Assembly: GCF_030012215.1 (NCBI RefSeq) | Contig: NZ_JASCXX010000024.1 | Span: forward strand, 1 to 64,000 | Source of the DNA: Anaerobaca lacustris | Lineage (GTDB): Bacteria; Planctomycetota; Phycisphaerae; Sedimentisphaerales; Anaerobacaceae | Reading direction: 5' to 3' | Length of the DNA: 64,000 bases | Shown: positions 6,064-61,915 of the stretch, in pieces | Layout of the letters: each line of letters starts with the position of its first letter | How positions within the stretch are numbered: the first letter of the stretch is position 1 | Notes under the pieces: model-generated | The model's database searches: none | Told to the model about the DNA's origin: nothing | What the model saw: the letters and a program-made list of their open reading frames with translations, nothing else | Translations under genes and position numbers: made by a program

Positions 6064-7860
6064 CTACGGGTTGGACGCCGGGACGATCCTGAAGACCACT
6101 CCCGTATCGCCATAGGGCCCCAGGGCCGTGCCGGCCAGGACATAGAGTTCGCCGTCGCGGTCCTGCCCCATGCCTTTGAGGAACAGGCCGAGGGGCTGCT
6201 GGTCGGTGCCAACGAGTAGTTCGTCGATCCGTCCGGACCAGAGGTCGGCGACGAAGAGCCGGCCCTGTGGCGTCCTGAACGCACGGGAGAAATCGCCGAA
6301 CACGTACATCGCACGCAATTGAGGAATCTGTGTCCCGGCATACAGGAACCCGCCGACGATGGCCAGGCCGTCGTTGTGGTCGTACTCGGCCACCGGGTCG
6401 ATCAGGGCCGGGTCGTCGAACGGCAGGCCGACGGCGGCGCCTGTGGGATCGAACAGGAAGCTGCCCTCTTTGATGTTCCAGCCGTAGTTGCCGCCCTTGC
6501 GCACGATGTCGATCTCCTCGACAAGGCCTTGGCCGACGTCGGCGACGATCAGCGCGCCGGTGAGCGGCTCGAAGCTGAAGCGGTAGGGATTGCGGAAGCC
6601 ATAGGCGAAGATCTCATCGACGCCGTCGATGCCGACGAACTCGTTGTCCCAGGGGATGCGGTACTGGCCGTTGGCGGCGGCGGGGTTGCGGCTGTGGGGC
6701 GTCGAGGCCGGCGGCAGGGGGTCGATCCGCAGGATGCTGCCGTGGACGGTGTGGATGTTTTGTCCGTTGCCTTGGGGGCCGTGGCCGACCCCGGCGTCGT
6801 TGGATGCGCCGCCGTCGCCGAGAGCGATATAGAGATAGCCGTCCGGGCCGAAGGCGAGATAGCCGCCGTTGTGATTGAACTGCGGCTGGTCGATGCGCAT
6901 GACAACGCGGGTGGTGCTGGGGTTGACGACGTTCTGCAGGCGGGCCAACTGCCACTCGGTGATGACGCTCTGGTGGTTGATCTGCTCGGGCGTGATGTCC
7001 AGCGTGAAGTCGGCCGGCCCGTTCACCGGCTCGCTGGTGTAGGTGTACAACGTGCGGTAGCCGGGATGGCCGAACTCGGCGAAGTGCGGGTGGAATGCCA
7101 GACCGAGGAGGCCGCGCTCGTCGTAATCGTCCTCATCGAAACTGCCGAAGATGCCCAGCGGCTGGACGAGGCGGTCCCGCACGTCAAGGAACGGCGTGGC
7201 CTGGAGCTGGCCCTGTTCGACGACGCGTACCAGGCCGGCCTGATCGACGATGTAGAGCCGCCCGGCAGCGACCGGGTCGGGTTGCAGGTCCACAGGGGCG
7301 ATCAGCCCGGAGGCGACGATCTCCAGGTCGATCCGGACCGGCGATGGATCGATGCGGTCGGCGATCGGCAGGCCCGTGATCGTGAAATCGCCTCGCATGT
7401 CCATGAAGTGAGGCCGGCATCGGTAGCCGGGCGTGCGGCCGCCCTCGACCATTGCCTGGTACAGTTCGGTCGTCAGCGTGAATGCGACCGTTCCTTGGCC
7501 GTCGTCCTGCCAGTTGATCTTGGGGTCCGATTCGAGCGGTCCGGCGATCGACATGGACAGCAGCACCCGGTCCTGCGTCGGCGACGGCGATTTGGCGATG
7601 ACCTCGAACGGGTGCATCATGTGGTCCGTCACTCTGACCTGATAGCGTTTGCCCAACGCCAGGGGCAGCGTCGGGTCGGCGCTGCCGATCGTGCCGAGCG
7701 CGGCGTCGGCGGGGGTGAAGGCGTCCAGGCGGTACGAGGCCGAGCCGATGGCGCCAAACGTCCAGGTCACATCCGTCGGCTGGGCCTGGACCGCGTCTCC
7801 GGCGAACAAGACCATCGTCGCCAGGACAACCCTGCCGAATGGAATTCGCAACGTTTTCAT
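6064..7860 (-). CDS. Secreted cupredoxin-like plus glucose/sorbosone dehydrogenase-like protein
   Basis: A 598-residue exported protein with two parts. After a signal peptide (cleavage near AVQAQPT), residues about 28-170 look like a cupredoxin: HPFEVIA supplies an early His, and CRPHFMDM supplies C-x2-H-x3-M, the usual type-1 copper ligand set. Residues about 185-598 form a PQQ-type sugar dehydrogenase (GSDH) beta-propeller, with blocks such as LLGLAFHPHF, FNHNGGYLAFGPDGYLYI and AYGFRNPYRFSF. This predicts a periplasmic sugar oxidation with a built-in copper electron carrier, which is inference. ATG 7860 follows AAGGGAGATTG. It lies just downstream of the GH32 gene on the same strand, a sensible context for extracellular sugar use. 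Confidence 0.85.
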   Translation of the reverse strand: MKTLRIPFGRVVLATMVLFAGDAVQAQPTDVTWTFGAIGSASYRLDAFTPADAALGTIGSADPTLPLALGKRYQVRVTDHMMHPFEVIAKSPSPTQDRVLLSMSIAGPLESDPKINWQDDGQGTVAFTLTTELYQAMVEGGRTPGYRCRPHFMDMRGDFTITGLPIADRIDPSPVRIDLEIVASGLIAPVDLQPDPVAAGRLYIVDQAGLVRVVEQGQLQATPFLDVRDRLVQPLGIFGSFDEDDYDERGLLGLAFHPHFAEFGHPGYRTLYTYTSEPVNGPADFTLDITPEQINHQSVITEWQLARLQNVVNPSTTRVVMRIDQPQFNHNGGYLAFGPDGYLYIALGDGGASNDAGVGHGPQGNGQNIHTVHGSILRIDPLPPASTPHSRNPAAANGQYRIPWDNEFVGIDGVDEIFAYGFRNPYRFSFEPLTGALIVADVGQGLVEEIDIVRKGGNYGWNIKEGSFLFDPTGAAVGLPFDDPALIDPVAEYDHNDGLAIVGGFLYAGTQIPQLRAMYVFGDFSRAFRTPQGRLFVADLWSGRIDELLVGTDQQPLGLFLKGMGQDRDGELYVLAGTALGPYGDTGVVFRIVPASNP

Positions 7861-8067
7861 GGTTCAATCTCCCTTCACACATCGGTATTTCGCGGCAAAC
7901 GATGCAACGCACACGGTTCACTTGGTATAAGACTTGATTGATCCTACTATGTGAACCGGCGCGCAGTTCAACCGTTTGGGTGCTGTCTGGCAAGAAAAAC
8001 GGCGCACGGAGAGGGCGGCCATCCCCTATGTTTCTTCAGGTGTATCGGTTGCGTGCCGGACCGGCGA

Positions 8068-10182
8068 TTATGGCCAGGTCGAGGCGATCTCGAAGACCTC
8101 CAGCGACTCGACGGCGATCGGGCCGCCCTCGCAGAAGAAACGCAACGACCGATTCTCGTCGGCGAACTTGACGCCCATCGGCATGTAGAGCCGGCCGGTG
8201 TTGGCGAAGACCTCGATCGAGGTGCGATCGACCAGGACGTCCAACTCGATCGCGCCATCCTTGGGTGACAACGGGGCGGTCTTGTCCAGGCAGGAGAGCT
8301 GGCGGGCCTTGGCGTCGTAGACGATGCGGACGCCTCGGATGTCCAGGGTCACGCGTTCGGCATCGCCCGGCTCGAAGCGGGTGCGGATGCGAAGCAGGTC
8401 GCCCCGGACGCCGCTGAGCAGGTCCTTTCGCGGCGTGAGCTTTTCGTTCGTCCAGGTCCGAAGGGGCGTCTGAATCCGTTCGATCTCCCGGACCGGCACG
8501 GCGAACAGGCGCGGGCCGTCGTCGGTTGTTCGCAGGGTCAGTTCGACGGGAAACAGCATCATCTGGTTGAACGGCATGCCCGGCATCTCGACGCGGCCCC
8601 AGGCGATCTGGATCCGCCGGCCGTCAGCGGGCGGGATGTCGCTGTAGGTCTGCGAGGCGTAGAAGCAGTTGCCGTAGTCGAACCGGATCTTGTCCGATTC
8701 GGGCGTGAAGGTCTTGCCGTCGAACGCGCCGATCAGATAGGTGCCGTCGGCGGCGTACAGGACCCAGCGTGCGTTGTCCGCATCGCCGTCGATGGGCAAC
8801 TCGAAGATCTCCGGGCACTCATAGAACCCCTCGATCAGGCTGGCGTACTGCCAGCTCTTGAGGTCGTCGGAGGTGTAGAATGCGATGGTGCGTTTGTCGT
8901 CGATCTCGTGATAGAGGGCCATGACCCAGTGCCGTCCCGGCCCGTACCAGATGACCTTCGGGTCGCGTCCTTGGTGTTTGACGACGGGATTGTCTTCATA
9001 CTCGGTGAAGGTCATTCCGCCGTCGTTGCTGTAGACGATGCACTCGCCCCGTCCGGTGCTGGTGTAGGCGGCCACGATGGGCGGATCGTCGCCGCTCTGA
9101 AAGCCCGCGGTGTCGTTCCCGTCGACCACGGCGCTGCCGGAGAAGCACCAGTCGCCAAACTGCTGCGGATACAGGGCGATGGGAAGCTCGGTCCAGTGGA
9201 CCAGATCGGTGCTGACGGCGTGGCCCCAGTGCATGTTGCCCCACTGGATGCCGTAGGGATTGTGCTGGTAGTAGAGATGGTACAGGCCCTTGTGGAAGAC
9301 GAGCCCGTTGGAGTCGTTGTTCCATCCGCGTCGCGAGGTGAAATGGAACTGCGGGCGATACTTCTCGCGGTACAGGTCTTCGGCCCCCTTGATGTCGTCG
9401 TCCTGGCCGATCAGATTGAGGCCGTGCGAGAAGCGGGGCAGGCCGTCCACCTCGATCGTCGCGGTCTTGCCCCTGAATGCGCTGACGTCCAGGAAGACCC
9501 AGAAGTCGGGATCGGCGTCGGCCAGCTCGATCTCGAATTCGCGGACCGTGCTGCCGTCGATGACGACCCTGGCTCGCCGTTTGGCGGCGCCGTTCTTGAC
9601 GGGGAAGTTGAGATACCGCGCGCTGAGCAGAAGCTCCTTGCTCTGGTCGAAATCGGTCTGCGAGTTGCTCTGGAAGATGTGATCGACGGTGATGTGGCCC
9701 CAGTGCCCGGCGTGGTTGTCCACGATGCGGATGCGTGCGGTCCGGCCGACGAAATCGGAGACGTCCCAGACTCGCGAGGACAATCGTTCGGAGCCGCCCG
9801 GCCGATTGTTGCGTCCGGTGGCCGTGCGAACGATGCGGCCGTCGACGATCAGGTCCATGCAGGTCAGACGGGGATAGCCGCCGCCGCCGATCAGGAAGTG
9901 GATGTAGCGGCGCTCGATCTCGAACGGCGGCGACGTGAGCGTGCCCTTCGATTCGTCACCGTTGAGGAAGCTGTTGACCAGGCCTCGACCTCGGAAGCCG
10001 GTGACCACCAACTGTCCCGGCAGGGTTCCCCTGGCCGGTGCGTTGCCGAAGGCATTGCCGGTCACCTCCCAGCTACCGTAGCCCGGGCCCTCGAAATCGC
10101 AGATCAGCAGGTCCGGTTCGCGCTGGCCCTGGCAGAGGCCGGGCAGGAGCATGGTCAGGAGAATCAAGACCCATCGTTGCAT
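8068..10182 (-). CDS. Secreted GH32 fructan hydrolase (levanase/invertase-like)
   Basis: A 704-residue exported enzyme (signal peptide MQRWVLILLTMLLPGLCQG). Residues about 25-245 form a beta-rich domain seen in front of some levanases (DUF4980-like). The GH32 catalytic domain follows. The nucleophile block, normally WMNDPNG, is WNNDSNG here; the RDP block is GRDPKVIW and the acid/base block is YECPEIF. All three carboxylates are kept, so it should hydrolyse beta-fructosides. A C-terminal beta-sandwich closes the protein (ELDVLVDRTSIEVFAN). Met-to-Asn and Pro-to-Ser changes in the first block could shift specificity. The GSDH-like gene lies 207 bp downstream. Confidence 0.93.
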   Translation of the reverse strand: MQRWVLILLTMLLPGLCQGQREPDLLICDFEGPGYGSWEVTGNAFGNAPARGTLPGQLVVTGFRGRGLVNSFLNGDESKGTLTSPPFEIERRYIHFLIGGGGYPRLTCMDLIVDGRIVRTATGRNNRPGGSERLSSRVWDVSDFVGRTARIRIVDNHAGHWGHITVDHIFQSNSQTDFDQSKELLLSARYLNFPVKNGAAKRRARVVIDGSTVREFEIELADADPDFWVFLDVSAFRGKTATIEVDGLPRFSHGLNLIGQDDDIKGAEDLYREKYRPQFHFTSRRGWNNDSNGLVFHKGLYHLYYQHNPYGIQWGNMHWGHAVSTDLVHWTELPIALYPQQFGDWCFSGSAVVDGNDTAGFQSGDDPPIVAAYTSTGRGECIVYSNDGGMTFTEYEDNPVVKHQGRDPKVIWYGPGRHWVMALYHEIDDKRTIAFYTSDDLKSWQYASLIEGFYECPEIFELPIDGDADNARWVLYAADGTYLIGAFDGKTFTPESDKIRFDYGNCFYASQTYSDIPPADGRRIQIAWGRVEMPGMPFNQMMLFPVELTLRTTDDGPRLFAVPVREIERIQTPLRTWTNEKLTPRKDLLSGVRGDLLRIRTRFEPGDAERVTLDIRGVRIVYDAKARQLSCLDKTAPLSPKDGAIELDVLVDRTSIEVFANTGRLYMPMGVKFADENRSLRFFCEGGPIAVESLEVFEIASTWP

Positions 10183-53431: not shown

Positions 53432-55657
53432 TCACGCTTCGGGAACGGCCTCCATCACGGCCAGGTAGAACCCGCCCTCAGGAGCGCCGTCCTGCGGCCA
53501 GTGGTACAACTCCTCGACGTGCGCGCCACGGAGGACATCGTAGAGGTGCTCCTGCTCTTCCAGCGAGCCGGTTACGATCTGAAGCGGTTGTCCACGGTCG
53601 AGAAGACCGCGCACCTCGTTGGCATCGACCCATCGCTTGTATGTGTGAAGATAGAGTTGAAGGGTCACGGGCGTGTGGACGTGCGTCAGTGCCGTCGGAT
53701 CGATGCCCGCCTCGCGCAGCGCCTTGGCGGCCTGGCGCACCTCGACGCTGTAGTTGGTCGTGCCCGCCCGCCGCACGTCCATTGTGTGATACGTCCAATA
53801 CGCGAATCCCATCAGGATCAGACACGTCGCCGCCGCACAGCCCGTCAGCAGGCGATCGCCGAGCGGTTCTCTCAGGCGCGCGATCTGACGACCCGCCAGC
53901 AGCGCGCCCGCCGGCCACAGTGGCAGCAGCAGGTCGGCCCGGTGGTGGGCTGCGAGTGAGAACATGGCCATGCCCGCAACCAACCAGCAGGCCAGGAACC
54001 GCTCGAATCGTCGTTCGATCGCCTGCGCTGCCGGATGGAAGACAACCCGCCAGAGCCCGATGAACGTAAACAGGCTGAACGGCAGGAACCGGCCCAACAG
54101 GTAGATCGTGGGCTTGGCCAGGTTCTGGCCGGGAAACGAGTGTTTGTGCGCTCCGGTGGCCTGACCGAAAAGTTCCTGCACGATCATTTTGTCGATGAGG
54201 GCGTATCCGCTGACGTGCAGGGCGAGCAGGAACCAGCCCAGGCACAGGGCCAGGTAGATCGCGATTCCGACGGCGTGCGACCCCCGCGGTCGCGGGGTGG
54301 TCGGGTCGGTCCGTCGCTCCCAGAAGAAGGCCAGCAGGCCGGCGGCGCCCAGCAGCAGTCCCAGGGGCCCTTTGATCAGCGTGGCGGCCGCCGCCGCCAG
54401 CCAGAAGGGCGTCCACCCGCCGCCGCGATTCCAGGCTCGCCAGGCCGCCAGGGCCACCAGCGCCACGGCCAGCGCGAAGAGCGGATCGGTACGGACAATC
54501 GCCACGTGTTTGGCGACGATAGGGGCCATCGCCGTGGCCAGTCCGGCGAAACCGCCAGCCATCCATCCGAAGGATCGCGATCCTACGGCGAAAACCAGCA
54601 GCGACAGGGCCAGCACGGAAACGAACGACGGCAGGGTTAGCGTGAGGCGGTTTATGCCCCCGATCTTCGCCAGGGCGGCCGTGATCCACGTATGCAGCGG
54701 GGGCTTGGAGGTGATGCGATTCTGCACGTCATGCTGCACGACCCAGTTGCCGGCCCAGGCGGCGTCCATGATGTAGCCGACGTTGCGGTTCTGCGCGTAG
54801 CCTTCGAGGTCCGACGGGCCGGAAAGACGCACCAGGTAGAGCGCAACGACCGCAGCGGAGATCACTGCGCCCCAGAGCAGCGCGTGCGGAGCGGCCTTGC
54901 GGAAGACCCGTCGAATTCTCCTGCGACCCAGCCAGAGTCCGGAAAGCAGAACCACCAGTGCCGCGGCGAGCAACTGACTGACGCTTTCCCACGTCTGGTC
55001 ATCCACGAGTCCGCCGGCAATCAACAGGACGACAAGACCCGCGGGGAGGAAGCCGAAAAGCGAACCGATAACGAACTGGACGCTGGTCACGGAGCTTAGC
55101 CCCAGACCGAGGTTGATGACCAGGCCGCCGATGGGCAACTGCCGCGCCATCACGACCGACCAGACCGATGGCGGGACCGTCAGCACCTTGCCGGCCGACG
55201 GATGGCGATCGAGCCAGTTGCTGAACCAGTCCCGTCCGGCCCAGCGGGCGCACAGGAACGCCGCATAGGCGCCGGCCAACGTGCCGACGTGCACCAGCAG
55301 CAGGCCTTTCCAGAACCCGAACATCAGGCCGGCCAGGCCGTAGAAGATCAGGCGCGGCGTGCCTACTGCGACCAGAATCGCGACGATGGGAACGAAGACC
55401 AGTTCCGCCCACACGTTCCCCTCGTCGAGCAGGGCCCGCAGGCGGTGAAAATCCATCAACACCTCACCCAACGGCGTCAGTCGGAGCAGCGCCGTTGCAG
55501 CGGCCGCCAGGCCGATCAGTACGGCGATGCGGGCGCGCTGCTTCAACGGCTGGTCGGACGTGTCGCCCTCGGTCGTCTCGCCCGGCAGGTTCAGTTTCGT
55601 CTCATCCAATGCTGTCGCCAGTGGAGGTGCCGCTGCAGGGCCTGTCGGTGCGCTCAT
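53432..55657 (-). CDS. Fused VTT (SNARE-associated) and GT39/ArnT-like glycosyltransferase
   Basis: A 741-residue membrane protein. Residues about 60-250 resemble the TVP38/DedA (VTT) fold: FVPIVAILVAVGTPRLIFYG then LMFGFWKGLLLVHVGTLAG. Residues about 270-660 are a GT39-type transferase like ArnT or PMT: NVGYIMDAAWAGNWVVQHD, the segment SKPPLHTWITAALAKIGG, and VRTDPLFALAVALVALAA. A soluble tail of about 110 residues ends it. GT39 enzymes move sugars from a lipid-linked donor to lipid A or proteins. The start at 55657 overlaps the GT2 gene by 4 bp (ATGA); earlier frame is open to 55747. Fusing a VTT domain to a GT39 is unusual. Confidence 0.85.
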   Translation of the reverse strand: MSAPTGPAAAPPLATALDETKLNLPGETTEGDTSDQPLKQRARIAVLIGLAAAATALLRLTPLGEVLMDFHRLRALLDEGNVWAELVFVPIVAILVAVGTPRLIFYGLAGLMFGFWKGLLLVHVGTLAGAYAAFLCARWAGRDWFSNWLDRHPSAGKVLTVPPSVWSVVMARQLPIGGLVINLGLGLSSVTSVQFVIGSLFGFLPAGLVVLLIAGGLVDDQTWESVSQLLAAALVVLLSGLWLGRRRIRRVFRKAAPHALLWGAVISAAVVALYLVRLSGPSDLEGYAQNRNVGYIMDAAWAGNWVVQHDVQNRITSKPPLHTWITAALAKIGGINRLTLTLPSFVSVLALSLLVFAVGSRSFGWMAGGFAGLATAMAPIVAKHVAIVRTDPLFALAVALVALAAWRAWNRGGGWTPFWLAAAAATLIKGPLGLLLGAAGLLAFFWERRTDPTTPRPRGSHAVGIAIYLALCLGWFLLALHVSGYALIDKMIVQELFGQATGAHKHSFPGQNLAKPTIYLLGRFLPFSLFTFIGLWRVVFHPAAQAIERRFERFLACWLVAGMAMFSLAAHHRADLLLPLWPAGALLAGRQIARLREPLGDRLLTGCAAATCLILMGFAYWTYHTMDVRRAGTTNYSVEVRQAAKALREAGIDPTALTHVHTPVTLQLYLHTYKRWVDANEVRGLLDRGQPLQIVTGSLEEQEHLYDVLRGAHVEELYHWPQDGAPEGGFYLAVMEAVPEA

Positions 55658-56439
55658 GGGTGGCCCTCCGTCGGCTCGACTCGGACAGCGGGGACCGCCC
55701 GCGCCAGGTACCAGCGGACGCCGAGGTAATCCCGCAACCCTCGCCACAGGCGGTCGTGCAGACCGTACTTCGACAGGCCGTGCAGGCGAGGCCGGTGGTT
55801 GACCGGCAACTCCTCAACACGAAACCCTTGTCCTCGCAGCAGGGTGGGCAGGAAACGATGCATCCCGTTGAAGACCGGCACCTCCGCGAGGCAGGCCCGG
55901 CCGACGATGCGAATGCCGCAGCCGCTGTCACTGATGCGATCGCCCGTGACCCGGTTGCGAAAGCCGTTGCCTACGCGGGACGAAATTCGCTTGAGCCAGT
56001 TGTCGCGTCGCACGGTGCGCACGCCGGTGACGCCGTCGGCGCCCGTCGCCAGCAGATGTGCCAGCAGGCGGGGCAGGTCGTTCGGATCGTTCTGTCCGTC
56101 GCCGTCGAGGGTGGCCACCCAGGCGCCTCGTGCGTGGCGAAAGCCCGTTGCCACCGCGGCGCTCTGGCCGCAGTTGTGTCGATGCTTCAGAATGCGCAGG
56201 GGCGCTGCGACCCGCCCGCCCGCCAGACGTGCGGCCGAGCCATCCGTGCTGGCGTCGTCCACGAACAGCACTTCGAACGGTCGCTTTGTCGTCGTCATCG
56301 CCGCCACGATCTCCTGGCACAACGATTCCACGTTGTCGGCCTCATTGAAGACGGGAACCACCACCGAGATATCGATGCTGGGCGGCGATTCCTGCTGGGA
56401 TTTGCCATATACGTTGTTTGGCGCTGTTGGTTCGATCAT
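55654..56439 (-). CDS. GT2 glycosyltransferase, polyprenyl-phosphate mannose synthase-like
   Basis: A 261-residue GT-A enzyme without the membrane tail of many relatives. Blocks VVPVFNEADNVESLC, VLFVDDASTDGS, GARGAWVATLDGDGQNDPND-type DGDGQNDP and SDSGCGIRI are those of dolichol-phosphate mannosyltransferase/polyprenyl-phosphate sugar synthases. It would load a sugar from a nucleotide donor onto a lipid phosphate at the cytoplasmic face; the fused GT39 gene, coupled by a 4-bp overlap, would then use that donor outside. Sugar identity is not determinable. Confidence 0.92.
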   Translation of the reverse strand: MIEPTAPNNVYGKSQQESPPSIDISVVVPVFNEADNVESLCQEIVAAMTTTKRPFEVLFVDDASTDGSAARLAGGRVAAPLRILKHRHNCGQSAAVATGFRHARGAWVATLDGDGQNDPNDLPRLLAHLLATGADGVTGVRTVRRDNWLKRISSRVGNGFRNRVTGDRISDSGCGIRIVGRACLAEVPVFNGMHRFLPTLLRGQGFRVEELPVNHRPRLHGLSKYGLHDRLWRGLRDYLGVRWYLARAVPAVRVEPTEGHP

Positions 56440-56633: not shown

Positions 56634-57164
56634 ATGGGTCTTCGTGAGTCGATTCTTCGCCGGCTTCCGGACAGAAACAGGCTGCGGCGGTCGTTCCTTT
56701 ATCGGGTGTTCGGCAAGGGGATCCTGGCCCGAGACCTGTGGCACTTCGACGCGCGCTCCCTGGCGGGCGGAGCCGCCCTTGGCCTGTTCATCGCGTTCAC
56801 GCCGACGATCCCGTTCCAGATGCTGCTGGCCTGCGTCGGCGTACTGTACTTCCGGGTGAACCTGCCCATCGCTCTGCTGGCCTGCTGGGTCACCAATCCG
56901 CTCACCGCCGTGCCCATCTACATGACGGCCTGGCGACTCGGCCACTTTGTCCTGTACGCGATCCCTTACGCCGATGAGTACATCGCTGCGTACGCTGCAG
57001 CCGGGCGGGGCAGGATCATCATGGGCTCGTTCTGTCTGTGGACCGGCTGCCTCATCCTCGGCACAGTCGCTGCGGTCGTGGGCAACGTGCTGATCCGATG
57101 GCTCTGGAAGGGCGCCCACCTGGCGCACCCGCGCCGAAAACGCCCCAAACGGTCTCAGCCGTAG
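56634..57164 (+). CDS. DUF2062 membrane protein
   Basis: A 176-residue protein of the DUF2062 family, function unknown. A basic N-terminus (RRLPDRNRLRRS) precedes three to four hydrophobic segments; the family block PTIPFQMLLACVGVLYFRVN and WVTNPLTAVPIYM is clear. The tail is very basic (AHPRRKRPKRSQP). AGGAG lies just before ATG 56634. It stands alone, divergent from the GT2 gene. DUF2062 proteins sometimes occur near glycosyltransferases, consistent with an envelope role (inference). Confidence 0.88.
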   Translation: MGLRESILRRLPDRNRLRRSFLYRVFGKGILARDLWHFDARSLAGGAALGLFIAFTPTIPFQMLLACVGVLYFRVNLPIALLACWVTNPLTAVPIYMTAWRLGHFVLYAIPYADEYIAAYAAAGRGRIIMGSFCLWTGCLILGTVAAVVGNVLIRWLWKGAHLAHPRRKRPKRSQP

Positions 57165-57223: not shown

Positions 57224-58399
57224 CTACTGCGAGGAGGTGGCAGCGTCCTCGACGAGCACGTTGCGCAGGTAGATGTGCAGGCTGCCGTTCCAGGGCTTGG
57301 TGGCGATGTCGATGTCACCGTCGCCATCCACGTCGGCGGCCTTGGCCTCGTGACAGCGTTTGCCTTCGAGGATCAGGTGCTCCTTCCACCGGCGGCCTTT
57401 GCCGTCGAGGTTCTCCCAGATGAAGCACTTCCGGGTGTCCTTGGAGAGGGGGCCGCCGCCGCTGAAGACGTCCAGGCGGCCGTTGTTGTTGAAATCGGCC
57501 ACGGCGAGCGAATGGAAATCCTGGTTGGTGTGGTTCGCCGAGATCAGGTGGAACTGCCAGGCGCGTCCTTTGCCCTTGTTCTCCCACCAGAAGACGCGGC
57601 CGTCCGGCGTATCGGCCTCGGCCTGGATGATGTCCATCTCGCCGTTGCCGCTCAGGTCGCAGACCCAGGTCTTCAAGGCCAAGCCGTAGCGCTCGGGCCG
57701 GCTGCCGTCCGGCGGCGTCAGGACCGCGTGCTCGATCCATTTCGTGCCCTTGCCGTCGGCATTCTCGAACCACACGTCGCCGCGTACGACGTCGTTGTGC
57801 CCGTTGCCGGTCAGATCGCCGACGCCCATCGGGTCCACCCCGCCGTGGATGCCGGGCCCGATCCGGTGCTCGACCCATTTCTCTCGTGGATCGTCCGGAA
57901 TCTTGTACCAGACGAGATATGGGTGCCTCTTGTCGTCACTGCACGCGACGACGTCGAGCTTGCCGTCGCCGTCGATATCGGCGGCGACCATGTCGTGGTT
58001 GGCGATGGCCCCCGTTTCATATCGCTCGAAGCGCTCCTCGCGCGGCCGGCCGGTGTTGCGGTACCATGCCGTGCCGGCGACCACGTCGATCCAGCCGTCG
58101 CCGTCGATGTCGAACGCCGTGCCGCCGACGTCCGTGCGGGCCCCCTCGCCGATATCGTGTTGAATCCACTTGTCGGGCGCGACATACTGGAACCACCACA
58201 TCTTGCCCGACTGACCGACGACCCAGTCGAGTTTGCCGTCCTTGTCGATATCGACCAACGCCGTCTGGCCCATTCGCATCCCGACGTCGGCAATCTCATG
58301 ACACTCGAATCGCGGCATCGCGCCGAACAGGGAGCCTGTCACCATACAAGCGAACAGAAGGAGTATCAGGAGGTCTCTCATGCCGTTGTTTCGAATCAT
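57224..58399 (-). CDS. Secreted VCBS/FG-GAP repeat protein
   Basis: A 391-residue exported protein (signal LLILLLFACMVTGSLFG). It contains about seven repeats with Ca-binding-like cores: DIDKDGKLDW, DIDGDGWIDV, DIDGDGKLDV, DLTGNGHNDV, DLSGNGEMDI, DFNNNGRLDV and DVDGDGDIDI. These make a seven-bladed beta-propeller, like integrin-type FG-GAP domains, and mediate binding to carbohydrates or other surface partners. There is no separate catalytic domain. AAAGGAA lies before ATG 58399. It is downstream of the LamG gene, with a terminator between them. Confidence 0.9.
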   Translation of the reverse strand: MIRNNGMRDLLILLLFACMVTGSLFGAMPRFECHEIADVGMRMGQTALVDIDKDGKLDWVVGQSGKMWWFQYVAPDKWIQHDIGEGARTDVGGTAFDIDGDGWIDVVAGTAWYRNTGRPREERFERYETGAIANHDMVAADIDGDGKLDVVACSDDKRHPYLVWYKIPDDPREKWVEHRIGPGIHGGVDPMGVGDLTGNGHNDVVRGDVWFENADGKGTKWIEHAVLTPPDGSRPERYGLALKTWVCDLSGNGEMDIIQAEADTPDGRVFWWENKGKGRAWQFHLISANHTNQDFHSLAVADFNNNGRLDVFSGGGPLSKDTRKCFIWENLDGKGRRWKEHLILEGKRCHEAKAADVDGDGDIDIATKPWNGSLHIYLRNVLVEDAATSSQ

Positions 58400-58521: not shown

Positions 58522-61284
58522 CTACGGCACGATCGCGCCGAGGAATTCCACTTCGGCGATCTGCATGAGACCGTCGTTGTTCGGACGAAGGGTCGGGAAC
58601 AGGAGTTGATAGTACCTGTACGCGACGGTGTTCTCGAACTCGATGGGTGTGGCGTTCCTGGTGAACCGCGGCCAGACCGTGGCCTGGCTGAAATCGACAA
58701 TGTCGCCGGCGGCAATCAGCGTGTACGGCCCGTCGATGCTCGCATTCGAGCCGTAGAGTTCAAACGAGGTCGGGTCCCGGCCATAATCGTCGTTGGCGGT
58801 GGTGAAGGTCAGTCCCGTGACAATCGCCGAGCCGACCAGCGGCGCGACCTGGAACCCCGTGGGCTGGCTGCCGCCCTTGCGGTGCAGGTACTTCGTGTTG
58901 ACGTTGTCGTCGATGGCCATCTCGGGTGCCTCATTGGCCGGCCAGTCGCCGTCGTTCGGAACGCCCTGCACGGTGTCGCCGGCGCCGGTGACGTCGGGGA
59001 AGGTGTAGTCGAGCACCTCGGGATACAGTCGGATGTCGTCGATGTACAGGACGCCCGTCGCACCAGCACCCTCAATGCCGATCGTCAGCGAGGTGACGCT
59101 GCTGACGTTGCCGGCCTGGGACAGATCGATGCTCCACAGTTGCCAGGACGGGCGGGCGATGTTCACGGCCGGGCCGTCATAGGCGATCTTGGTATTGTTG
59201 ATTTTCACATACAATTGGCCGGTGTTGCCCTCGGCGCCGTAGAAGTACAGCGACAGGCTCTCGATGCCGTACTGCGTCCAGTCGGCCGTCAACGCGTAGT
59301 CGGCCTCGGAGGTGGCCACGGTGCTGTTGTCGTACGACAGCGGCATCGACTGGCGGCCGCTGTGGACGATGGTGCGCTCGGCGAACGGGGTGTTCAGATG
59401 GCCGACGGTCGAGCCGGTGTCGTTTACCCAGCCGTCGAGCCAGGTGTCGAAGATCGCTTCGCCGGCCTCGATGTCGTCGGTGTAGCTCTCGAAATCCTCG
59501 ACGACGATGAACTCCTGGGCGGTGAAGCTCCAGACGTCGCCTTCCCACGACTCGGTCTCCTGGATCGCGTTGACCTGCCAGTAGTACGTGGTGGCGAGAT
59601 TCAGCGCACCGGGGCTGTAGCTGTTGCCGGTCACGGTGCCGGCCAGCGCCAGCGCATCGGCTTCGGTGCCAAGGTACACTTCATGTGAGACGGCGTCACG
59701 TCCGGCTCTCCAGGCCAGCGCGCCGTCCACGCTGACATCGGCAGCGTCGTCGGCCGGCTGCGGCTGACGGGCGTGAGCGGGGATGTACATGAAGCGGACC
59801 TCACTGAGGCCATATTGGCCCATCATCCCCCAGCCGCTGTTGACGGTCAGGCGGACGAAGCGGGCGGCCACGCCCTCGAGGGCAACCGTCGTATTGGCCG
59901 TATACGTCGCCGCGGCGGTGGCCTGGCTCAACTGCACGTCGCCCAGCACGGCCCAGTCCTCGCCATCGACCGAGTACTCGACGGTGACGTCCTTGAGTCC
60001 GAAGCCCAACAGCATCTCGAACTGGACGTTGTAGTTCCAGACGAGCATCTCATGGAGTTTGTAAAGGCGGTCGAACTCGAACTGGATGTACAGCGGCTCG
60101 TCGCCGGGCCGGGCCACCCACATATCGCCGGCGGCGGTCGAGTGCTGGTCGTCGGCGTTCAAGCCCGATCCGTTGACCGTATTCTGCGGACCGGCTCCCT
60201 CGTCGAAAACGCCGTTGCTGGTGGCGAAGACGCCCGTTACCGGGTAGGCGAGTGGCTCGGCCGTGAAACTCCAGGTCTCCCCCTTGAAGATCGCGTTGTC
60301 CGGCGCGCCGTTGACCTCATCGATGCGCCAGTAGTAGGTCTGACCGAAATCGAGGAGTCCGGGCGGGTCGAATGTGGCGCCGGCCTGACCCTGGCTGAGC
60401 AGCACGCCCATCGGATTGCCCCGGCCGGCGGTGTTGACGTCGTCGAACGAGGCGCCGAAGTACACGTCATGCGTGACGGCATACTCGCCTGCCTCCCAGC
60501 TCAAAACCACATCGCGCGGAATATCGCTCGCTTCGTTCTCCGGCGCCGGGTTGGAGGCCAGTTCCAGACCCGGACCGCGCCCCGTCATGGCCAGTTGAAT
60601 CTCCTCAATCGTCAGGGCCGTATCGTAGAGACGGAAGTCGTCGATCATGCCCCGGTACCACCCTTCGAGGAGGCTGGGCTTGGTGCCGATGGTGAACTTG
60701 GTGACGCCCTCCATCGTATTGGTCATGCCGGTCCCGCTGTGCCAGAGTTCGCCGTTGATGTAGATCTGCTGATCGCCGGTGTCGGCGTTCTTGAGGAAGG
60801 TCCAGAAGGTCCAGGTGCCCTCGTAGTCGGCCGGATCGGCCGCTCTTTCGATGCGGTTGTAGCCCGGCCCGCCTGTGTCGAAGTACACGTTGCCGTTGCT
60901 CCACGGCACGTGGGCGCTCATCCTCCGGGCTTCGTTGTTGGCGGGGTCGGAGAAAGCCCCGAAGATGAAGTTGGCCTGCGGCTGCTGGTCCGGGTCGCCG
61001 TAGGCCCAGAACGATACGGTCGCCTGCCTCTCGATCGTGGACCACGACTCCGGGGGGACGTCCACATAGGAGGTCCCCTGGAAATCCAGGGCGCCGCCGT
61101 AGTGTCCGGCGACCCAGATGGGATCGGTGATCGTCCCGTGGTACCCCCGGCCGGAACTGTCCTTGGCGATCGAGCCCGATCCGTCGTCGAACTTCCACCA
61201 GCCCACCAGAGCCGCCTCGGAGACACTCGCCAGGGCCAGCCCCAGGACAACAACGCATATCACGGCATTGATTCGTCTACACAT
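58522..61284 (-). CDS. Secreted multi-domain protein: LamG, discoidin-type and Fn3-like modules
   Basis: A 920-residue exported protein. ATG 61284 has AAGGAGG at the usual distance and a signal peptide (VICVVVLGLALASVSEA). Order of parts: a LamG jelly-roll (about 25-230: LVGWWKFDDGSGSIAKDSSG, YINGELWHSG), an Fn3-like segment (VLSWEAGEYAVTHDVYFG), a discoidin-like F5/8 domain (about 400-520: ILVWNYN-type MLVWNYNVQFEML, VEYSVDGEDWAVLGD), a second Fn3-like segment, a beta-sandwich (VVEDFESYTDDIEAGEAIFD) and a second F5/8-like end (FELYGSNAS, MQIAEVEFLG). Such proteins bind polysaccharide on the cell surface. No PEP-CTERM or sortase signal is seen. Confidence 0.88.
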   Translation of the reverse strand: MCRRINAVICVVVLGLALASVSEAALVGWWKFDDGSGSIAKDSSGRGYHGTITDPIWVAGHYGGALDFQGTSYVDVPPESWSTIERQATVSFWAYGDPDQQPQANFIFGAFSDPANNEARRMSAHVPWSNGNVYFDTGGPGYNRIERAADPADYEGTWTFWTFLKNADTGDQQIYINGELWHSGTGMTNTMEGVTKFTIGTKPSLLEGWYRGMIDDFRLYDTALTIEEIQLAMTGRGPGLELASNPAPENEASDIPRDVVLSWEAGEYAVTHDVYFGASFDDVNTAGRGNPMGVLLSQGQAGATFDPPGLLDFGQTYYWRIDEVNGAPDNAIFKGETWSFTAEPLAYPVTGVFATSNGVFDEGAGPQNTVNGSGLNADDQHSTAAGDMWVARPGDEPLYIQFEFDRLYKLHEMLVWNYNVQFEMLLGFGLKDVTVEYSVDGEDWAVLGDVQLSQATAAATYTANTTVALEGVAARFVRLTVNSGWGMMGQYGLSEVRFMYIPAHARQPQPADDAADVSVDGALAWRAGRDAVSHEVYLGTEADALALAGTVTGNSYSPGALNLATTYYWQVNAIQETESWEGDVWSFTAQEFIVVEDFESYTDDIEAGEAIFDTWLDGWVNDTGSTVGHLNTPFAERTIVHSGRQSMPLSYDNSTVATSEADYALTADWTQYGIESLSLYFYGAEGNTGQLYVKINNTKIAYDGPAVNIARPSWQLWSIDLSQAGNVSSVTSLTIGIEGAGATGVLYIDDIRLYPEVLDYTFPDVTGAGDTVQGVPNDGDWPANEAPEMAIDDNVNTKYLHRKGGSQPTGFQVAPLVGSAIVTGLTFTTANDDYGRDPTSFELYGSNASIDGPYTLIAAGDIVDFSQATVWPRFTRNATPIEFENTVAYRYYQLLFPTLRPNNDGLMQIAEVEFLGAIVP

Positions 61285-61915
61285 GATGATCCTCCTTCGA
61301 GCCAACGATGAAATGGCACCATACTGCGTCTTGGTCACGCGCCAAAACCGCGTCTCTCCCCCGGACTGTCCTTGTGTGCGAAACGAGTGAGAACCCGCAC
61401 GTTCACCTCCTTCCCGTAGAGAACCAGCGGTCTGTGAAATGGATGTACTGCATCTGTGATGCGAGGAGCTTCCGCACCCAACGCCCCGGCCCTGCTGTGC
61501 GTGTGGCAGAACACTTTGCGTCAGGACCTCCAACCGAACGGAACCGGCGGCCGGCGGCAGGGGAAGAGGGCCCTGGAACCACTGCCCGGCCGAGCGGATC
61601 CCTCGAATGTGCCCATCTGCGATCATCATAGCGTACGACCGGCCGATGGGGCAAACGTATTCTTCGGCGCAACCTCTCTTTCTATCGGCTCCCATCGCGT
61701 CGATCTTCAGTCATATAGACCCCGGAACTGGACGTCGATAGCAGCCGCTCCGGCGCGAGCCGGCCGGATTGAGACTTGCGATCTGCTGCAAAGCCGCTAC
61801 AGTGGGTGGTGATGTGCGCCTGATCGAAGAAGGCCGAATCCGGGGGGATAAGCGTATCGCTGGTTCCGCCCCGGTACGCGACAACACAATCCCTTTTTGT
61901 TGGGGAGCGTCCGAT
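61285..61915. other. Intergenic region of about 630 bp with divergent genes
   Basis: The gap separates the LamG gene (minus) and the trehalose gene (plus). I see a predicted promoter (61776-61803) and, on the minus strand, a 21-codon frame starting at GTG 61400 with a near-perfect AAGGAGGTGAAC site (61401-61412) and stopping at 61335-61337. It is not in phase with the LamG gene. Otherwise no gene or repeat. Confidence 0.5.
61776..61803 (+). promoter_or_regulatory. Possible promoter of the trehalose gene
   Basis: TTGCGA (61776-61781) and TACAGT (61798-61803) with a 16-bp spacer, giving a start near 61810 and a leader of about 105 nt. Both boxes are imperfect. Confidence 0.35.

Follow-up and report, generated by a model that had tools for sequence, protein, structure and literature searches.

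In the window, the 64,000-nucleotide stretch at positions 1 to 64,000 of contig NZ_JASCXX010000024.1 of the planctomycete Anaerobaca lacustris, a single gene encodes a protein that joins a membrane domain of the VTT/DedA superfamily (PF09335) to a glycosyltransferase of family GT39, and it directly follows the gene of a family GT2 glycosyltransferase. The fusion gene is one open frame of 741 codons from an ATG at 55657; the program-made list of open reading frames starts it at a GTG, 55747, which lies within the GT2 gene. Its product scores above the Pfam cut-offs for both VTT_dom (residues 101–212, E 1.2e-12, 48.8 bits against a cut-off of 33.9) and PMT_2 (residues 317–472, E 2.5e-12, 47.7 bits against 26.1), in agreement with the original prediction, made from the DNA letters, of a VTT N-terminal half in one frame with a transferase and an ATGA overlap with GT2. 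The GT2 protein (261 residues; PF00535, E 3.6e-27) has the ArnC equivalog as its best NCBIfam match (E 1.8e-33), at 115.9 bits against a strict cut-off of 529, and can be regarded as a candidate ArnC/GtrB-like polyprenyl-phosphate sugar synthase.

A full-length orthologue of the fusion gene is present in a second genome of the same genus (G294, contig LVBB01000010.1; the metagenome-assembled genome of Phycisphaerales bacterium Planc_01). The match extends over residues 1–741 at 73% identity, and the adjacent GT2 gene is 84% identical and has the identical ATGA overlap. A frameshift, which the original prediction had named as a possible refutation, or an assembly error behind the fusion is therefore unlikely and was rejected. 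Over 733 aligned codons of the orthologous pair, 296 differences fall at third positions and 95 at second positions, and third-position changes prevail in both halves. The VTT part is 76% identical and the GT39 part 75%, which points to similar constraint on both halves.

Features of the GT2 and VTT-GT39 fusion genes in the window
Feature	Positions	Strand	Basis or remark
GT2 gene	55654-56439	-	PF00535, ArnC as nearest NCBIfam family; eight best non-self matches precede VTT genes
ATGA overlap of GT2 stop and fusion start	55654-55657	-	also in the orthologue
VTT-GT39 fusion gene, 741 aa	53432-55657	-	one frame, two Pfam domains, full-length orthologue
VTT half, about residues 36-245	54923-55552 (VTT_dom 55022-55357)	-	Pfam; AlphaFold 2 model
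First re-entrant tip motif with Arg102, mark of the linked VTT subfamily	55352-55363	-	alignment, AlphaFold 2 model
Second re-entrant tip motif; Arg172 and Pro175 invariant in 30-row alignment	55124-55144	-	alignment, AlphaFold 2 model
Basic linker RRRIRRVFRK, residues 245-254	54896-54925	-	joins last VTT helix to first GT39 helix
GT39 half (GT-C, ArnT fold), about residues 256-741	53435-54892 (PMT_2 54239-54709)	-	Pfam; ArnT structure match
Ala288 codon GCG, at the position of ArnT Asp55	54794-54796	-	alignment

The fusion was found in a single genus. Among the matches listed for 294 genomes of the phylum (the best three candidates per genome at most), the fusion was seen only in the window genome, and among 161 genomes of the order (the best six at most) only in the window genome and G294; out of five other genomes of the window's genus, G294 alone has it. 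No match covered both halves in 299 genomes of the Pseudomonadota sample, taken from the phylum of an Acetobacteraceae metagenome-assembled genome (again the best three at most), and the one plasmid record that matched did so over the VTT part only. Since only these best candidates were scored, a distant fusion could be missed; the contig scan that gave the LVBB01000010.1 orthologue detects close relatives only. The 6368 stop-to-stop frames (90 residues or longer) from 205 loci contained no fusion besides the two known genes and their copies. A match in G231 over residues 187–623 was rejected as a fusion; it is interrupted by five stops, and the stretch contains a GT39 frame but no VTT. The genome search suggested in the original prediction thus added one genome of the genus and, in these samples, nothing beyond it. 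In the open-licence literature of PubMed Central, none of the listed titles and opening lines of abstracts concerned a fusion of VTT with GT39 or a system of GT2, VTT and GT39.

The unfused genes are found side by side more widely, which suggests a putative dedicated route for sugars across the membrane. The fusion protein and the GT2 protein served as queries against the 294 genomes of the phylum; we read the surroundings of the matches and marked domains with profiles built for this study. Each of the eight best non-self GT2 matches lies directly before a VTT gene. Twelve VTT genes of Planctomycetota are directly adjacent to GT2 and/or GT39 genes, in the orders GT2-VTT-GT39 (G026, G192, G019), GT39-GT2-VTT (G179, G045, G135, G066), GT2-VTT (G236, G108, G051, G089) and VTT-GT39 (G123); of all linked sets, only that of G123 is without GT2. 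In G019 and G192 the order is GT2-ATGA-VTT-ATGA-GT39, so loss of one stop codon would yield a fusion like that of the window. The VTT genes of G154 and G035 (L019, L031), which ranked high, are unlinked. Twenty further stretches around lower-ranked VTT matches had no GT39 gene and no strong GT2 match beside the VTT gene; two weak GT2 matches were located 0.7 and 3.2 kb away.

The same gene set recurs in a second phylum. The surroundings of 14 VTT genes from the Pseudomonadota sample include four GT2-VTT-GT39 triads (G622, G738, G715, G518), two GT2-VTT pairs (G739, G611) and eight unlinked genes. The triad of G622 (its VTT is L170) adjoins a sensor kinase gene. All three plasmid regions read, from Alteromonas macleodii, Salinimonas iocasae and Glaciecola sp. 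(jointly L206, L207, L208), have the GT2-VTT-GT39 triad close to metal-efflux genes; in those of Alteromonas and Salinimonas, genes for a phosphoethanolamine-lipid A transferase and a diacylglycerol kinase follow it and a two-component system adjoins it. The coupling to GT2 proposed in the original prediction is supported, with a GT2 that is ArnC-like, and the recurrence of the unfused set in two phyla goes beyond what the window shows. Upstream of the GT2-VTT pair at L198 is a 601-residue frame (7038-8840, minus strand) that has no Pfam match at E 0.001.

The linked VTT proteins belong to one clade and share a signature. The VTT tree was built from 61 chosen rows, 47 of the 110 VTT frames (many of them duplicates) and 14 further VTT proteins of the host genomes (14 used of 22 read, from 34 matches); the unlinked L195 was included. 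A clade of 24 rows (support 98/93) contains both fused proteins, all 18 linked ones and four of the 41 unlinked ones (L019, L192, L193, L194). A further branch (99/90) separates the fused, linked and COG0398-type rows from nine host rows judged by sequence to be COG0586- or COG1238-like. At the first re-entrant tip, all 18 linked proteins and the three plasmid VTTs have Pro-Arg, within a Gly-x-Pro-Arg motif (Gly-Val-Pro-Arg in L198) in all but L029, and most unlinked proteins have Pro-Gly. Because L029 (Ala-Ile-Pro-Arg) and L181 (Leu-Pro-Arg) deviate from the longer motif, Pro-Arg was taken as the criterion. Counting only VTT genes with known surroundings, 18 of the 25 that have Pro-Arg are linked, versus none of the 24 that lack it. 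Fisher tests on hand-tallied counts of linked and unlinked genes with and without Pro-Arg (12/4 and 0/19 in Planctomycetota, 6/3 and 0/5 in Pseudomonadota) gave P values of 2e-6 and 0.03, respectively, and 5e-8 for the pooled counts, to be read only as a guide, because related genes were taken as independent and the rows were picked by likeness to the window protein. Three lone Gly-x-Pro-Arg VTT genes (L192, L193, L194) have no GT2 or GT39 gene within about 5 kb and possibly reflect another use of the subfamily.

The AlphaFold 2 model of the VTT half (residues 36–260, mean pLDDT 87.1) predicts two re-entrant helices, with helix breaks at both tips (fragment residues 63–66 and 139–142), where the motifs around Arg102 and Arg172 are located. 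With Foldseek, the half had no match to a solved VTT structure at E <= 0.001. A phosphate could be bound by the arginines of the two tips, and no acidic residue suited to proton coupling is evident, which would fit facilitated movement of a phosphate-linked lipid.

The second half has the fold of ArnT, as the original prediction had suggested. The model of the full-length fusion (mean pLDDT 77.8) matches ArnT with bound undecaprenyl phosphate (Und-P; 5f15) at Z 35.6 and a root mean square deviation of 3.7 over 386 residues; both Foldseek and VIA give ArnT as a match. In a PDB sequence search with E up to 1, the sole match of the fusion protein is ArnT 5ezm (E 4.9e-7), over the second half. The linker between the halves is basic and, under the positive-inside rule, would be cytoplasmic. 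It would let helix 1 of the GT39 half begin in the cytoplasm, as helix 1 of ArnT does.

The transferases linked to this one VTT clade are of several kinds. In a quick GT39 tree without bootstraps, linked proteins occur in at least four clades (those of families f47, f26 and f33, and a Pseudomonadota clade); the linkage label needs four changes, three of them forced by the starred branches. The fused half groups with GT39 proteins of G313 and of families f16 and f22, none of which was seen beside a VTT gene. The VTT is thus of a constant kind while the transferase changes.

Based on the observed domains, the fusion, the recurrent gene set and the pairing of a single VTT clade with GT39 proteins of several kinds, we propose, with a probability of roughly one half, an extracytoplasmic glycosylation system of three components, with a distinct VTT subfamily, here fused to its GT39, in the flippase slot. 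As in known three-component systems, genes for a GT2 synthase and a GT-C transferase are clustered with that of a membrane protein, the VTT being the presumed transporter. We infer all biochemical steps, as well as the sugar and the acceptor. GT2 would load a sugar onto Und-P on the cytoplasmic side, the VTT protein would move the carrier across the membrane, and GT39 would hand the sugar to an envelope acceptor on the periplasmic side; in the window's genus, the VTT and GT39 genes have merged to encode one protein. More tentatively, the Gly-x-Pro-Arg VTT proteins might be a new class of Und-P-monosaccharide flippases, an alternative to GtrA, ArnEF and MATE that would act without proton-titratable residues at its tips and would have acquired GT39 partners of several kinds in turn; in the fusion, one polypeptide might deliver the loaded carrier directly to the active site. 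Lipid A is a plausible acceptor in the Gammaproteobacteria with plasmid triads. In the window genome, where the original prediction had considered it, it is only a guess, because the GT39 half is no strict ArnT (17.9 bits against the NCBIfam cut-off of 567).

Several observations weigh against this proposal. Where the COG0586 proteins have acidic residues at the first tip (Glu39 and Asp51) and two arginines at the second (Todor et al., PMC10127716), the window protein has hydrophobic residues with Gly-Thr-Pro-Arg and Arg172 alone. Proteins of COG0398 have no acids at the first tip and one or both arginines missing at the second, and the window VTT agrees with them in these residues and in its place in the tree. 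It is thus, by its residues, COG0398-like and not of the COG0586 type credited with Und-P flipping; for COG0398 proteins, Und-P flipping is described as unlikely and phospholipid scrambling as possible (PMC10127716). Both fused proteins have Ala288 where ArnT has Asp55, usually the catalytic-site aspartate. One partner is absent from the stretch read in five linked Planctomycetota sets (contigs end near those of G089 and G236), and seven of the 25 Pro-Arg VTT genes have neither GT2 nor GT39 in the surroundings read (L019, L031, L174, L181, L192–L194). The idea in the original prediction that one polypeptide flips and uses the carrier loaded by GT2 therefore stands as to domains and linkage, but not as to the type of VTT or the expected aspartate. 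Its mechanism is half supported, the VTT being best read as a carrier-handling protein dedicated to a GT2/GT39 pathway.

Doubtful, in our view, is a reversed direction of transport, with the VTT half as a recycling flippase that returns the empty Und-P released outside by GT39 to the inner leaflet for reloading by GT2, so that the fusion closes the carrier cycle. Und-P return is the reported activity of bacterial DedA proteins (PMC12826051), and without a DedA protein the lipid A of Burkholderia carries less 4-amino-4-deoxy-L-arabinose (Ara4N) and that of a Pseudomonas strain none (PMC7835334, PMC12893004). The genome of the orthologue, moreover, has no match to PopT. However, of the residues that mark Und-P flippases, the window VTT lacks the acidic pair and one arginine, and the 99/90 branch sets it apart from the nine host rows judged COG0586- or COG1238-like. 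Several triad hosts also encode VTT proteins judged to be COG0586-like. The window genome, 98% complete, itself has one PopT, along with a single VTT, the fused one. We consider outward flipping of the loaded carrier slightly more likely than return of the empty one.

It is unlikely, given the conservation of its sequence, that the GT39 half no longer transfers sugar and serves as a carrier-binding or docking module for the VTT half, the chemistry being done by another GT39. The ArnT motifs of the first periplasmic loop, Asp-Glu and Arg-Tyr-Ala (PMC5377068, PMC7801869), are replaced by Ala288-Gln289 and Arg291-Asn292. The 288 column has Asp in 19 of 27 aligned rows, including all 13 near relatives, and every transferase in the search of PMC7801869 has an aspartate at that position. 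The window genome also has four PMT_2 matches besides the fused one, of which one, at 60859 on its contig 15, is about 0.6 kb downstream of a second GT2 gene (59603-60268 of that contig; read at L162, 54000-66000) with no VTT gene nearby. On the other hand, the GT39 halves of the two genomes share 75% identity, and their codons differ mostly at third positions; all 27 rows have the lysine of the Lys-Pro motif (Lys318), and the Asp391 column has Asp in 23 and Glu in four. Six non-fused rows lack Asp at the 288 column as well, five with Glu one column on and one with a gap there. Glu285, found three residues from Ala288 in the two fused rows only, could be the acid at a new place, though it need not stand in for the missing aspartate. 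A chance merger of neighbouring genes, with the VTT half a phospholipid scramblase without special tie to the transferase, would accord with the suggested role of COG0398 relatives (PMC10127716), with VTT fusions to unrelated enzymes (Pyr_redox) and with the restriction of the fusion to one genus, but is improbable in view of the linkage in two phyla, in several gene orders and with different GT39 clades, and of its confinement, in the surroundings read, to VTT genes with Pro-Arg at the first tip.

The window genome has no match to GtrA or SMR, though no search was made for MATE, Wzx or EamA transporters; the orthologue genome has no match to GtrA. A gene for a DUF2062 membrane protein (56634-57164, plus strand) is divergent from the GT2 gene and conserved at the orthologous locus (L075). 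GT2-DUF2062 fusions exist elsewhere. We left this protein out of the proposed system because it was not met at other GT2-VTT loci. Upstream of the operon, an FG-GAP repeat protein (57224-58399) and a long frame (58522-61695) are encoded on the minus strand; the orthologue contig (L032) also has the FG-GAP gene and the end of the protein encoded by the long frame. The window's own family also has VTT-Pyr_redox fusions in both domain orders (L037, 442-2724; L053, 76-2238; both on the plus strand).

The linkage is stronger than is visible from the window alone, and it bears on two questions. For flippases of lipid-linked single sugars, assignment often rests on context. A 2024 paper says that flipping by the proteins it discusses has not been directly demonstrated (PMC11127046), and the role of COG0398-type DedA proteins in bacteria is open (PMC10127716). 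A VTT subfamily that is tied to GT2 and GT39 in two phyla, carries a signature residue where the substrate is proposed to sit and occurs as a natural fusion makes both questions testable.

Compared with known systems, the fusion protein joins a VTT domain to an enzyme, as do the DedA fusions named in PMC10127716, with rhodanese and PAP2 (COG0586) and with Pyr_redox (COG0398); GT39 is not listed in that paper as a partner. With the DedA/UptA Und-P flippases (COG0586) it shares the VTT superfamily and two re-entrant helices, but it differs in lacking the acidic pair, in having one of two arginines and in its separate branch of the tree. The COG0398 (TVP38) DedA proteins, including the VTT-Pyr_redox fusions, likewise have no acidic pair and a single arginine at the second tip; the window VTT differs from them in Gly-x-Pro-Arg, where Pro-Gly is usual at the first tip, and in its glycosyltransferase partner. 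The Arn pathway (ArnC, ArnEF, ArnT) is similar in that GT2 is nearest to ArnC, GT39 has the ArnT fold, and two of the three plasmid triads lie beside an annotated lipid A modifying enzyme. Unlike its enzymes, the window proteins fall below the strict ArnT and ArnC cut-offs of NCBIfam, the GT39 half has alanine at the Asp55 position, and a VTT is found where Arn has ArnEF. The lgm locus of Bordetella was considered as a further parallel; its lgmD is reported to be dispensable. The Gtr three-component systems (GtrB as GT2, GtrA as flippase, and a GT-C transferase) and their SMR and MATE relatives have the same three-part plan and gene clustering, and the flippases proposed for the described systems are GtrA, SMR or MATE proteins (PMC11127046). 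In the GT2-VTT-GT39 sets the flippase slot would be taken by a VTT protein, in the window fused to the GT-C enzyme itself.

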